In this document: piece by piece, positions 1 to 54,613 of the stretch
Position numbering within the stretch: the first letter of the stretch is position 1
Layout: each line of letters starts with the position of its first letter
From: Alkalibacterium putridalgicola
GTDB lineage: Bacteria > Bacillota > Bacilli > Lactobacillales > Carnobacteriaceae_A
Length of the DNA: 57,731 nt
NCBI RefSeq assembly: GCF_900109825.1
Contig: NZ_FOBL01000017.1
Span: 1 to 57,731, forward strand
Direction of reading: 5' to 3'
Program-made: the position numbers and the translations under genes
Notes under the pieces: model-generated
Seen by the model: only the letters and a program-made list of their open reading frames with translations
Told to the model about the DNA's origin: nothing
Databases searched by the model: none

Positions 1-150
1 CGCAATAGCATTACTCACTCGTAAAATGACGCGAGTACGTCGAATGAAGGGCGTAAAGGCATTACTCAACTGAGAAATCGCGTGAGTACGTCGAAAGAAG
101 GGCACAATGGCAGTACTCACTCGCAAAACTGCGTGGGTACACCGAAAGAG
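1..150. repeat. Hairpin array, locus 1 (51-bp period, cut by window edge)
   Basis: Three tandem imperfect units. The 5' arm core TACTC starts at 12, 63 and 114 and the 3' arm core GAGTA/GGGTA starts at 33, 84 and 135, so both arms repeat every 51 bp exactly. In unit 3 GTACTCAC pairs with GTGGGTAC across a 12-nt loop; in unit 2 TACTCA pairs with TGAGTA. A GTCGAA/CCGAAAGA stretch follows each 3' arm. The array may continue to the left of the window. Same architecture as the seven other arrays in this window. Confidence 0.8.
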
Positions 151-207
151 CACAGCAATAGCCCTGCTCTAAAGCAATCGTCTTTGAGTGAGCGTTAAGA
201 ATGATCA

Positions 208-292
208 ACGTATGGTAAGAAAGCTTTAGATCGGAAGATCCTCGTCGCAGGACGAGGATCACCTCTAAATAAAATAAAATTTCACCATACGT
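208..292. repeat. Nested inverted repeat upstream of small membrane protein
   Basis: An inner perfect 10-bp hairpin (GATCCTCGTC at 237-246 with GACGAGGATC at 251-260, loop GCAG) sits inside an outer 9-bp pair (ACGTATGGT at 208-216 with ACCATACGT at 284-292). There is no U-tract after the inner hairpin, so it is not a clear terminator. It ends 9 nt before the Shine-Dalgarno of the next gene and so could form in its leader RNA. Confidence 0.5.
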
Positions 293-313
293 GAAAAAGA
301 AAGGAGGGTCAAA

Positions 314-487
314 ATGACGAATTTATGGTTCTCAGTTTTTCCGCTTATAATGATGCTCTTCAGTCTCTTGATTGCTGGGGTGTTCATCTACGCTTTACTG
401 TCTTTGGCACAAAGCAACCGTCAGCAGGCAGAGTCGTTAAGAGAAATCGAAAGAACGCTGAAACGCATGACAAATGTCAAAGACTGA
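314..487 (+). CDS. Small single-pass membrane protein (57 aa)
   Basis: A 57-codon frame beginning MTNLWFSVFP. A strong AAGGAGGG ribosome site at 301-308 lies 5 nt before the ATG and is the main reason to call it. Residues about 5-32 form one hydrophobic helix (FPLIMMLFSLLIAG), followed by a charged amphipathic tail, residues 35-57, rich in Gln, Arg, Glu and Lys that looks like a short coiled coil. It lies 235 bp ahead of the ABC cassette, with a weak hairpin in between, so it is probably a separate unit. No family recognised; possible roles include a small regulatory membrane peptide. Confidence 0.6.
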   Translation: MTNLWFSVFPLIMMLFSLLIAGVFIYALLSLAQSNRQQAESLREIERTLKRMTNVKD

Positions 488-544
488 TGTAGACGTTCAA
501 TAATGATCTTTGCAGGACTTTGTATAAAATATAATCCGATTAAT

Positions 545-580
545 AAAAAACTGATGAGCTTACTGTTCTGCAGTTTTTTT
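545..580 (+). terminator. Weak terminator after small membrane protein
   Basis: AAAAAACTG pairs with CAGTTTTTT across a 17-nt loop; only two of the nine pairs are G-C, so it may be leaky. Confidence 0.35.
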
Positions 581-722
581 GCGTTATAACCGCTCATATT
601 ATGAAGAAAGTATGAAATCCCCTTGAGATTAGAAAAAAATGATAAAATGTCGGTCTTTTATGATTTTTCTGTGATAAACTAGTTAGACAAGTGAAAAAAC
701 TATACAAACAAAGGGCGATCGT

Positions 723-1901
723 ATGATAAGGCAAGTAATGAGTGAAACGGTCACGTACATGTGGCGGAACAAGAAGAACAGGTTAGTCATGATCTTATGC
801 CTGGGTGCTGTTCTTTTACATAGTTTATTTATTCTACCGAATACTCCGGGAAATGAGGAAGTGAATCTAACGCAGCTGGAACGACAGATGGAAGCGAACC
901 GGCAGACGTTCGAAGATCAGCTGGCCAAAGGGCTCACGGTCCCGACCTTCTTCACCGGGACGAGTGCGTATGAAACAGCACGTAATGAATATGTCAATCA
1001 GCGGGAGCTTCTGACAGCTCTGAATAACGGAGACGTCAGACGGTATCTGGAGATCCCTTACCGGCCGACAGCTCAAGGCTCGGAAGAGGGAGGCGGGAAT
1101 GCGTTCAGTGTGCCCTTTAGAGTCCTCGGAAATGCGAAAGAAATGTTCTTTTCCAGCCAGAAAACAGATTATTACTTGAATGAAGCGGAACCGCTGACCT
1201 TTCATATGGTACATGAGCGGACGAGCCTGCAGCAGCTCCATCTCTTTCTGATCGGACAGGGACCATATATACTGCTTCTACTTCTGCTGTTCATGATCAG
1301 CGACGTCATTACCAAAGACCGGTCACTGCGGACACAAAAAGCCGGGGTCCCTCTAAACTGGTTTGGCTATCTGTTCATCCAGTCGGTGACGGCACTCGGT
1401 TTCGTCACACTGTTTTTTGTGGCATTATCGGGTTTCTTCATTCTCCTGAATGGCCTGCTCCACGGCTTCGGTTCGATAGCCATGCCGGTCGGAGCTCTGG
1501 GTGAAGCCGAAAATGCGTATGCCATGCTGCCGTATATCACGATGGAAGTCGGGACTTTCCTGCTTCGAAGCCTGCCGTATGTGCTCCTTTTGATGTACGG
1601 CTTTACACGATTGAACACGCTGTTCAGTCTGATATTCAGGCACGATATCGTGACGTTTATTGCATCGGTGTTCGTTCTTTTGTTCCCGCAGCTTTATTAC
1701 AGCCCCGGAACAGAAGAACTGCTCGGCATCAATCTGTCTTTCTACCCGCAGACCTATTACCATTTCGGTGATGTGGTGACGAGCAGACTGAACGTGCCTT
1801 ATGACAGAGGCCTGTTGGTCCTGGCAGTCACTGTCTTAGTGATCGAACTGCTGAACGTTGGTGCCACCAAAGTGATCAAACGCCAGAGCTTCGTGAGATA
1901 A
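723..1901 (+). CDS. ABC-2 type transporter permease protein (first of two)
   Basis: 392-residue integral membrane protein with the layout of ABC-2 type exporter permeases: one N-terminal membrane helix (about residues 21-37), a roughly 130-residue extracytoplasmic segment, then about five helices from residue 170 to the C terminus. It resembles the next gene in size and plan (both 390-400 aa), so the two probably form the heterodimeric membrane part of one transporter. It opens a tightly packed operon (11 nt to the next gene) that also encodes an ATPase, a lipoprotein and two small membrane proteins. The substrate is unknown; related systems export peptides or act in cell-envelope stress. Start chosen at the only well-placed ATG, after AAAGGGCGATCGT. 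Confidence 0.8.
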   Translation: MIRQVMSETVTYMWRNKKNRLVMILCLGAVLLHSLFILPNTPGNEEVNLTQLERQMEANRQTFEDQLAKGLTVPTFFTGTSAYETARNEYVNQRELLTALNNGDVRRYLEIPYRPTAQGSEEGGGNAFSVPFRVLGNAKEMFFSSQKTDYYLNEAEPLTFHMVHERTSLQQLHLFLIGQGPYILLLLLLFMISDVITKDRSLRTQKAGVPLNWFGYLFIQSVTALGFVTLFFVALSGFFILLNGLLHGFGSIAMPVGALGEAENAYAMLPYITMEVGTFLLRSLPYVLLLMYGFTRLNTLFSLIFRHDIVTFIASVFVLLFPQLYYSPGTEELLGINLSFYPQTYYHFGDVVTSRLNVPYDRGLLVLAVTVLVIELLNVGATKVIKRQSFVR

Positions 1902-52787: not shown

Positions 52788-52802
52788 AGAACCAGCTTTA
52801 TA

Positions 52803-52831
52803 GAAGAGGCAGAGAAGTTTACTGCCTCTTC
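52803..52831 (+). terminator. bglP-bglA intergenic stem-loop
   Basis: GAAGAGGCAG pairs perfectly with CTGCCTCTTC, 9-nt loop, followed by ATTACTT rather than a U-tract. Likely a partial terminator or an mRNA processing/stability element, as in the malE-malF gap. Confidence 0.6.
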
Positions 52832-52865
52832 ATTACTTAAAAAAGAGAAAAGGGGAACGTTTATA

Positions 52866-54305
52866 ATGAATGAAAAAGGATTTAAAGATGACTTTTTATG
52901 GGGCGGCGCAACAGCTGCCAATCAATTTGAAGGTGGATTTGATGAAGGCGGCAGAGGACTGAATTTGGCCGATGTCCTGCCTGGCGGAAAAGAACGCCTG
53001 AAGCTGCTGGCTTCTTCCGGCTTTGATTTTGAAATGGATACAGAAAAGTATTCATATCCCAACCACGAAGGCATTGATTTTTATCACCGCTATAAAGAAG
53101 ACATCGCTTTGTTTGCGGAAATGGGCTTCAAAGTCTTCCGTCTGAGTATTGCCTGGAGCCGTATCTTTCCAAAAGGGGACGAAATGGAGCCAAATGAAGA
53201 AGGACTGGCCTTTTACGACCGTGTCTTCGACGAACTGGCAAAATACGATATCGAACCTTTAGTGACCATCGCGCATTACGAAACACCGCTGCACTTGATC
53301 AAAGAATACGGCGGCTGGAAAAACAGAAAACTGGTCGAGTTCTTCGACCGTTACGTTGAAGCAATCTTCACGCGCTATCAGGATAAAGTAAAATACTGGC
53401 TGACATTCAACGAAATCAATGGCGCAACTCATATGCCGTTGTTTGGTCTGGGTTTCTCTCCTGAAAGTGAAGAGACACGTCTGCAGGAAAGCTTCCAGGG
53501 ACTGCACCATCAGTTTGTGGCAAGTGCCCGTGCGGTTCAGAAGGGACATGAGATCATCCCTGAATCACAAATCGGCTGCATGCTGATTTATGCACCGGTC
53601 TATCCATATAATTCAAATCCTGAGAATGTGATGCATGCCAGAAAAGAAGCAGATCTGTTCAACTTCTTCTGTGGGGATGTTCAGGTACGCGGTGCGTATC
53701 CGTACTTTATCGACCGCTACTTCGAAGAAAATGACATTTCAATCGAGATGGAAGACGGCGATCTGGAAACTATAGCTAATGGAACGGTCGACTTTATTTC
53801 ATTCAGCTACTATATGTCCCGTACAGACAAGAAAGAAAAATCACCTGAAGAAATGGGTCAGGGCAACCTGATCGGCGGCGTTAAAAACCCATTCCTTGAA
53901 GCCAGTGACTGGGGCTGGGAAATCGATCCGGTCGGTCTGCGTATTTCATTGAATGAACTATACGGACGTTACCAGAAACCACTGATGATCGTTGAAAACG
54001 GTCTGGGTGCTTATGATAAAGTTGAAGAAGACGGATCCATTCAGGATGACTACCGTATCGATTATTTGCGTGAACACATTGCTGAAATGAAAGAAGCCGT
54101 CAAAGATGGCGTCGATGTCATCGGCTATACCTCTTGGGGATGTATCGACCTGGTCAGTGCATCGACCGGTGAATACTCTAAACGTTACGGCTTCATCTAC
54201 GTCGACAAGCACGATGACGGCTCCGGAACAATGGAACGCAAGAAGAAAAAATCATTTGACTGGTACAAACAAGTCATCGAGTCAAACGGTGAAGATCTGA
54301 AGTAA
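52866..54305 (+). CDS. bglA: 6-phospho-beta-glucosidase (GH1)
   Basis: 479 residues, cytoplasmic. GH1 signatures: [15 protein letters not shown] at the N terminus, acid/base Glu in LTFNEINGA (about 182), nucleophile Glu in [12 protein letters not shown] (about 377), and the phosphate-binding loop region near [15 protein letters not shown] (about 436-450), which points to a 6-phospho substrate. It hydrolyses the sugar phosphate delivered by BglP. AAAAGGGGAA precedes the ATG. Confidence 0.93.
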
Positions 54306-54319
54306 ATAAGTATGAACGC

Positions 54320-54365
54320 AGCACTGATGGATCTGACTCGACGGTCGGGTTTGTCAGTGCTTTTT
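54320..54365 (+). terminator. Terminator of licT-bglPA
   Basis: AGCACTGA pairs with TCAGTGCT, with further inner pairs (GATCTGACT region), followed by TTTT. Confidence 0.85.
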
Positions 54366-54433
54366 CAGAAAGATCATACACGCTGTTCAGCGCGTATGAC
54401 CACTTGTATAGAATCAGGGTCAGCAGTCCGAAA

Positions 54434-54613
54434 CGTCAGGAGTGAGACTGAAAATGTCGTCCACTTCTGACGTTTCAGACCGAACTTCAGGAGTCTGGAG
54501 AATATAAAGTGAAACTCCTGAAGATCAGGCATTATCTTCAGGAGTTTCAGAAGAAACAGCCGTCACTTCTTAAGATAACGGGTAGGGACAAGAAAATCTG
54601 GTACTTATCTTAA
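54434..54613. repeat. Hairpin array, locus 8 (same arm family as locus 7, 51-bp period)
   Basis: 3' arms (CGTCAGGAGT / CTTCAGGAGT) at 54434, 54485 and 54536; 5' arms (ACTTCTGA / ACTCCTGA / ACTTCTTA) at 54463, 54514 and 54565: all steps are 51 bp. The central hairpin is a perfect 15-bp stem (GAAACTCCTGAAGAT with ATCTTCAGGAGTTTC). A further 9-bp pair, TTAAGATAA (54570-54578) with TTATCTTAA (54605-54613), follows but is about 22 bp out of register. Confidence 0.87.

Follow-up and report, generated by a model that had tools for sequence, protein, structure and literature searches.

The window analyzed here is a 57,731-bp stretch of the Alkalibacterium putridalgicola genome (contig NZ_FOBL01000017.1), and eight of its intergenic gaps are occupied by arrays of tandem inverted repeats. 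Direct reading of all eight gaps bore out the dimensions given in the initial annotation, with arms of about 14 bp, palindromes of about 34 bp and spacers of 17–18 bp. The arrays are intergenic palindromic tandem repeats that obey an unusually strict geometric rule: dyads of half-sites recur with a period of five helical turns. They lie mainly downstream of genes, in many cases after one gene's terminator and ahead of the next gene's promoter. Autocorrelation was computed over lags of 20–109, or fewer for the short gaps, and compared with 1000 dinucleotide shuffles of each gap. Lag 51/52 or its double (102/103/104) gave the highest autocorrelation in all eight gaps, and the identity at lag 51/52 was reached by none of the 1000 shuffles in any of them, so the claim of phased repeats at eight loci holds and shuffled sequence does not reproduce the pattern. 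The inverted-repeat design, also claimed for all eight, was supported at six, where chains of dyads (14-bp arms, 5–6-bp centers, steps of 50.5–52.5 bp; 300 shuffles per gap) outscored the shuffles (p ≤ 0.0033). The dyad-chain score was not significant at 22407–22685 (p 0.40), where only 5–8 of 14 arm positions match, or at 47763–47930 (p 0.55). In the latter, a CCGAA array, the outer arms match poorly, yet the design is visible as CCGAA-N10-TTCGG followed by CCGAA-N11-TTCGG. Tandem Repeats Finder detects the younger, homogenized parts of the arrays, and a near-identical run within the 6202 array spans 6459–6700.

Arm sequence differs between loci as had been claimed, but the eight gaps share five families and not eight. 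None of the arrays is assigned a strand. The family GAGTTCCGGTTATA occupies the gaps at 6202 and 35070. The first of these arrays (6254–6755) has ten units in exact 52-bp steps (centers 6270.5–6738.5) with degenerate half-units toward 6202 and 6790; its ortholog in the relative G004 has fewer units, and contig C49 carries a 70% identical stretch. The second (35103–35292) has four units at 52 bp. The family CTAnnnRCCGAA is found in the 17505 and 47763 gaps. In the former, seven units of the form CTAnnnRCCGAA-N10/11-TTCGG lie at 17538–17880 with a mean step of 51.5, and the orthologous gap holds 11 units in G004 and 5 in G003. In the latter (47763–47930), CCGAA-N10-TTCGG at 47771 and CCGAA-N11-TTCGG at 47822 are followed by a degenerate third unit near 47874. 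The family AACTCCTKAAG is represented by AACTCCTTAAGTTT at 49439–49552, with two full 51-bp units (centers 49455.5 and 49506.5) and a half-unit, and by AACTCCTGAAGATC at 54462–54613, with two full 51-bp units (centers 54478.5 and 54529.5) and flanking half-sites. An array of family GTACTCAC opens the contig sequence (1–150), with a 51-bp period and centers at 24.5, 75.5 and 126.5, and the same family recurs at L039 7386–7539. Finally, the array at 22407–22685, of family GAGTGAACAGTTT ... AAATGTCGCACTC, consists of five 52-bp units and a half-unit with weak dyads. A GAGTGAGCACTTTT array in G007 (L111) apparently belongs to the same family.

The arrays recur through the window's own genome (G000, 2.6 Mb), of which a 552-kb sample comprising the window and further stretches was searched. 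This sample contains about 29 hand-picked arrays in ten or eleven families, and a 'contig end' in that list may mark where a retrieved stretch stops. The families are GAGTTCCGGTTATA, CTAnnnRCCGAA, GAGCTTGTCATTTT, GAACTAGTCACTAA, GAAGGTCACAAAA, TGAACTTCACTTTT, GAGTACGTCCAATG, AACTCCTKAAG, GTACTCAC, GAGTGAACAGTTT and, less securely, AACAAGTGAGG. Among 211 noncoding segments, 32 had a dyad-chain score of at least 10 (0.67 or 1.75 expected, depending on the kind of shuffle) and 14 a score of at least 13 (none expected). The spectrum of dyad pairs peaks at 25.5, 51, 51.5, 52, 76.5 and 102–104, the first of these being the half period from palindrome center to spacer center.

The geometry of the CCGAA family is especially regular. 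In the noncoding DNA searched, for spacings of 4–21, the two halves of CCGAA-N-TTCGG are separated by 10 bp in 21 cases and by 11 bp in eight, with 4 and 13 occurring once each. Neighboring strict units are 51.5 bp apart in 11 of 11 cases, and in eight of eight where the spacers are less than 50% identical to neighboring spacers. Units with looser ends follow at 51.5 bp in 35 of 44 cases, the remainder being five at 52, three at 52.5 and one at 62.5 bp. Centers of 10 and 11 bp alternate, in that neighbors differ in 38 of 43 pairs and next-but-one units agree in all 34; the gap is 31 bp in 35 of 38 mixed neighbors and 32 bp in all five 10/10 neighbors. The alternation of both centers and gaps indicates that 103-bp double units, each equal to ten turns at 10.3 bp, make up most of this family. 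Two palindromes also alternate in G002 and G007, with a super-period of 102–103 bp. As a correction to the proposed period of 51 or 52 bp, the 17505 array averages 51.5 bp per step.

The tips of the arms are often shared. GAGT is the commonest tip among 55 half-site consensuses, which include two duplicate loci and 13 loci chosen by the GAGT pattern. GA starts at arm position 0–2 in 34 of the 55, or in 23 of 42 (hand count) once the pattern-chosen loci are removed. Loci retrieved by the pattern itself are likewise included in the GAGT-tipped sets used for spacing, folding and covariation. Positions 1–4 of GAGT-tipped units are fixed by the search; beyond these, the arms agree at positions 7 and 11–13, two regions one turn apart. 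Judged from geometry, arm agreement, dyad and period together would place contacts about 10, 10, 10 and 21–22 bp apart on one face of the helix.

Arrays recur in relatives as well, so that neither outcome named in the initial annotation as refuting the pattern was observed. Other genomes of the genus have arrays built to this design from different arms, including in orthologous gaps. The gap after the LacI gene holds CCGAA arrays in G000, G003 and G004 and other families in G009, G002 and G011, and no array was found there in G001 or G007. A tip-based pattern of two GAGT-ACTC palindromes 51–52 bp apart was searched more widely, with the reversed pattern as control. Families lacking the GAGT tip escape this pattern, so the counts are minima. 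Within the order, matches occurred in 21 of the 395 genomes and six of the 80 genera, against one of 395 genomes for the control. The matches include 11 of 12 genomes of the window's genus and all six sampled genomes of genus g30, with a maximum of 163 in G013, of another family, whose arrays were confirmed by direct reading. In a phylum sample of 398 genomes the pattern matched two: the genome of the window itself and G455, where the match is a plain tandem repeat. The control matched one (G530). In genus g30 (L121–L126 and L142–L145), the 17-bp spacer seems by eye to be conserved and asymmetric, roughly AAAYGGAAAWCGRYTYT; this asymmetry allows the units to be oriented, and both orientations were found. 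With respect to replication, the orientation in G067 came from one locus with 7 junctions in a 400-kb sample, too few to interpret.

One array has also moved between genera. The segment at 33602–36686, in which an array separates a pullulanase and an amylase gene (also L140), aligns over 3,086 bp with DNA of G040, which belongs to a different genus, at 94.6% identity, and this points to a recent inter-genus transfer. The G040 copy of the 35070 array is nearly identical, with four units in register, and one unit carries clustered multi-base changes that resemble conversion. Two scans of viral contigs for arrays gave no match, with exact GAGT tips demanded in three units, and one match, which looks like a coding coincidence in a CGAA-rich stretch. 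No match was found by blastn of the 6202 array against phage records or in a plasmid search with two array queries.

Comparison of orthologous gaps points to constraint on the arms. Between G000 and G004, a single species pair compared over four gaps (the 1–150 gap being excluded), the arrays are orthologous by their flanks but differ by whole units, and changes affect 101 of 588 arm positions, 47 of 123 loop positions and 91 of 300 spacer positions (arm vs. rest, p 1.6e-8). The frequency of change in arms is thus roughly half that in loops and spacers. Among GAGT-tipped arrays (17 arrays, 81 distinct units), there was no per-unit covariation between the two arms (379/810 pairs vs. 379.1 with permuted partners, z -0.03), which indicates half-sites rather than hairpins. 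The symmetry of these arrays stems from a common half-site consensus, so the proposal that complementarity is kept applies to the CCGAA family, where covariation is found, and not to the GAGT-tipped arrays. Other families comprise too few arrays to judge.

The position of the arrays relative to genes is consistent with their lying at the ends of transcription units. In the window, intrinsic terminators on the plus strand stand ahead of three arrays: a hairpin of the upstream LacI-type gene at 17441–17486, one between a pullulanase-like gene and the 35070 array at 34923–34948, and one of the upstream ABC-transporter gene at 47662–47691. A separate scan, which gives scores and no positions, scored terminators before these arrays at 13.7, 11.5 and 12.5, respectively. 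Over the 29 hand-listed arrays, a strong terminator precedes the array in 17 of the 28 genes that read toward one. Both neighbors are known for 23 arrays; 22 of these are downstream of one or both neighboring genes, and one is in a divergent context, whereas 52 of the 254 noncoding segments whose context is known are divergent, a modest difference (p 0.036). No wobble signal was detected: over 84 arrays from automatic detection, some of them chance chains, 266 G-T and 273 A-C mismatched pairs were counted; on the sense strand of tandem genes, the counts were 129 G-T and 145 A-C. Additionally, a scan of the window with Rfam 15 gave no matches at gathering thresholds.

Some neighboring features may be recorded here. 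A similar palindrome (TTGAGCC-NNNN-GGCTCAA), at 6883–6900 of the window and at L002 1381–1398, adjoins two GAGTTCC-family arrays on different contigs and may be a duplicated terminator. Beside the 6202 array, a purple-acid-phosphatase-like gene (7072–8778) was not found in the other 11 genomes of the genus, and its best named match is from Atopococcus tabaci (63%). At L123 1415–1801 (minus strand), a 51-bp array is open as a 17-residue repeat reading frame, which is probably incidental because 52-bp arrays cannot hold a reading frame. A fragment of an IS200-type Y1 transposase lies at the contig end (57607–57729, minus strand).

The rigid spacing, the slow change of the arms and the lack of an RNA signal are most simply explained by a dimeric DNA-binding protein that reads half-sites on one face of the helix. 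The arrays are therefore tentatively interpreted, with a probability slightly below even, as cis-acting docking arrays at transcription-unit boundaries for a putative dimeric protein that requires helical phase, with a role like that of bacterial interspersed mosaic elements (BIMEs) but without being repetitive extragenic palindromes (REPs). Each palindrome of about 34 bp would accommodate one dimer of a protein that recognizes specific sequences, with contacts to an outer tip, often the common GAGT or GAAC, and to a family-specific inner part of the arm. With a five-turn period, neighboring dimers would face the same side of the helix, and an array could thereby nucleate a straight or regularly wrapped nucleoprotein stretch. 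Arrays would expand and shrink through unequal exchange of whole units, while families would diverge through drift of the inner arm. By analogy with what has been proposed for the BIMEs of Escherichia coli, the arrays would most likely serve as boundaries or topological elements that separate transcription units. The initial annotation had likewise suggested a protein array on one side of the helix, which accords with the constancy of the spacing, the slower change of the arms and the many arrays that follow terminators; the helical phasing itself is a matter of geometry and not a measurement. Its suggestion of a replication or repair substrate found no support in this analysis.

Several observations weigh against a docking array or weaken the counts behind it. 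In the CCGAA family, counted over 28 units of nine arrays, the seven outer positions of the two arms pair in 139 of 196 cases versus 105.5 with partners permuted within the array (z 4.99), so this family keeps per-unit complementarity where the GAGT-tipped arrays keep only a half-site consensus. CCGAA units also fold well as DNA (-13.3 and -8.7 vs. about -2 kcal/mol shuffled, computed with DNA parameters), and a plain half-site model predicts neither the covariation nor the folding. Taken gap by gap, the arm test is significant in two gaps (p 0.002 and 1e-5), with p values of 0.07 and 0.13 in the others. The alternation of CCGAA centers is weaker farther out (13 of 17 pairs differ at a distance of three units, and 9 of 10 agree at a distance of four), and units five and six apart are too few to be informative. 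About a third of the 32 own segments with scores of 10 or more were judged by eye to be terminators or chance chains in AT-rich DNA. In control genera (G014–G020, Atopococcus, Aerococcaceae, Staphylococcus and Paenibacillus; G012, with 1/13, excluded as a member of the same family), 13 of 204 segments score at least 10 and 3 at least 13. Because terminators and AT-rich DNA also score there, the motif-anchored tests are given more weight. In the order search, the match in G279 falls inside a coding sequence with no array there, so that the sounder count is 20 genomes in five genera. The terminator scan lacked array-free gaps as a control and detected no terminator before the array in 11 of the 28 inward genes, and in G013 the divergent label falls on three of 12 high-scoring segments, among them the clear array L176. 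Moreover, no lag-51/52 peak was seen in the sampled stretches of G001, G005, G006 and G010, and G005 had no match to the tip-based pattern in the order search. This indicates that the arrays are unevenly spread, and they are perhaps dispensable.

The strongest rival to a docking array is that the arrays are selfish or passive tandem DNA, in which slippage or unequal recombination multiplies the units, template switching perfects the palindromes and nothing binds. The whole-unit differences between G000 and G004, near-identical runs such as 6459–6700, the conversion-like change in one unit between the window and G040, and the per-unit covariation of the CCGAA family, some of whose palindromes match at 14 of 14 positions, are all in keeping with such an origin, and the selfish system suggested in the initial annotation is a live candidate for how arrays grow. 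Yet alone it does not explain the constant spacing over unrelated spacers or the slower arms. The 51–52-bp period is held across many unrelated families and at least three genera, arms changed less than loops and spacers, and arrays are scarce in divergent gaps, the last of these by a modest difference. Passive tandem DNA is somewhat unlikely.

Alternatively, the arms could act by intrastrand pairing, with the arrays serving as a supercoil sink of cruciforms or as a substrate of single-stranded DNA hairpins. The CCGAA family offers the best case, as its covariation shows no G-T bias (11 vs. 11) and its DNA folds are stable; one GAGTTCGGG unit also folds at -5.3 versus -1.8 shuffled. These results leave room for DNA hairpins, or for palindromes perfected by template switching, within the CCGAA family. 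In contrast, its inner three positions lack clear covariation (27/84 vs. 21.1, z 1.58), the seventeen GAGT-tipped arrays do not covary, the tested GAGTGAACA, GAGTTGGTC and AAACTTGTC units fold within about one standard deviation of shuffled sequence, and cruciforms need no constant spacing. The hairpin nuclease SbcD also scores above its family cut-off in 20 of 21 array-group genomes (G000–G011, G013, six of genus g30, G040 and G163), all but G010. Loss of SbcCD was rejected as an explanation on the same result. Hairpins or cruciforms are an improbable explanation.

Transcribed RNA hairpin arrays, acting as stabilizers of 3' untranslated regions, small RNAs or sponges, would suit the usual location downstream of genes and the 11 of 28 inward genes lacking a detected terminator, but this possibility is very improbable and an RNA element was rejected, since there is no G-T excess, including on the sense strand, 17 of the 28 inward genes terminate first and the Rfam scan was empty.

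Among known systems, no repeat of this design was found in the open-licence PubMed Central literature searched, as the initial annotation had supposed, but REP/BIME and STAR elements are related in kind. REPs and BIMEs are described as short intergenic palindromes of 20–40 bp, often clustered and mostly between tandem and convergent genes (PMC3733652; PMC2817692). According to PMC3733652, E. coli REPs are targets of gyrase; the paper also discusses a role in supercoiling and cites work on topological insulators, and its main text contains no word beginning 'Firmicutes' or 'Lactobacill'. The arrays resemble these elements in being short, imperfect intergenic palindromes present in high copy number. 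They differ in their one rigid 51–52-bp period across all families and in that the GTAG/CGTC tag of REPs was not seen by eye in the 55 arm consensuses, no dedicated tag search having been made. Spread of REP/BIME-like elements by a RAYT (Y1 HUH) transposase would suit palindromic, intergenic, multi-family arrays that lie mostly 3' of genes, but it has only a slight probability and was rejected because the distribution of Y1_Tnp does not track the arrays: no match was found in seven of 11 genus relatives (G001, G003, G005, G006, G007, G010 and G011), including G003, G007 and G011 with clear arrays, and the six hits in the window's own genome are all partial, five of them at contig ends.

The STAR elements of staphylococci are also intergenic tandem units of about 50 nt that are gained and lost whole, and purifying selection on them has been suggested by their authors (PMC3532100). 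The arrays share this unit length and mode of change. STAR elements, as described there, have one GC-rich 14-bp motif, whereas the arrays have many arm families. The STAR motif T(G/A/T)TGTTG(G/T)GGCCC(C/A), searched in one form as a pair of TGTTGGGGCCC 30–60 bp apart, was absent from G000 and present in one of 398 class genomes (G1127), in an array at G1127:C1:1609308–1609620 with a 60–61-bp period. Stem-loop families are the subject of PMC2267715. CRISPR arrays, which have associated cas genes, likewise combine partly palindromic repeats with spacers of constant length, but their repeats are near-identical and their spacers unique. The repeats of the present arrays are degenerate, their centers vary, their spacers are only 17–18 bp long, and they occupy about 29 ordinary gaps of the 552-kb sample.

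A more far-reaching version of the docking-array interpretation, which is distinctly unlikely as it stands, is that the arrays form a lineage-specific chromosomal scaffold. A conserved protein would then sit on phased half-site arrays in many gaps, with about a dozen specificities per genome and the five-turn geometry kept, as a bacterial counterpart of satellite-like insulator arrays with rapid co-evolution of site and protein. Intergenic repeat arrays of bacteria have mostly been attributed to a transposase, as with REP/RAYT, or left unexplained, as with STAR. In this lineage, many unrelated sequences follow a single geometric rule, which the best-measured family obeys to within about half a base pair even where its spacers are unrelated, and they do so in gaps that often seem to be untranscribed. 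The arrays therefore offer a concrete, testable case for selection on helical phasing in bacterial chromosomes, and the combination of constant geometry with changing half-sites provides a handle for finding the putative protein.

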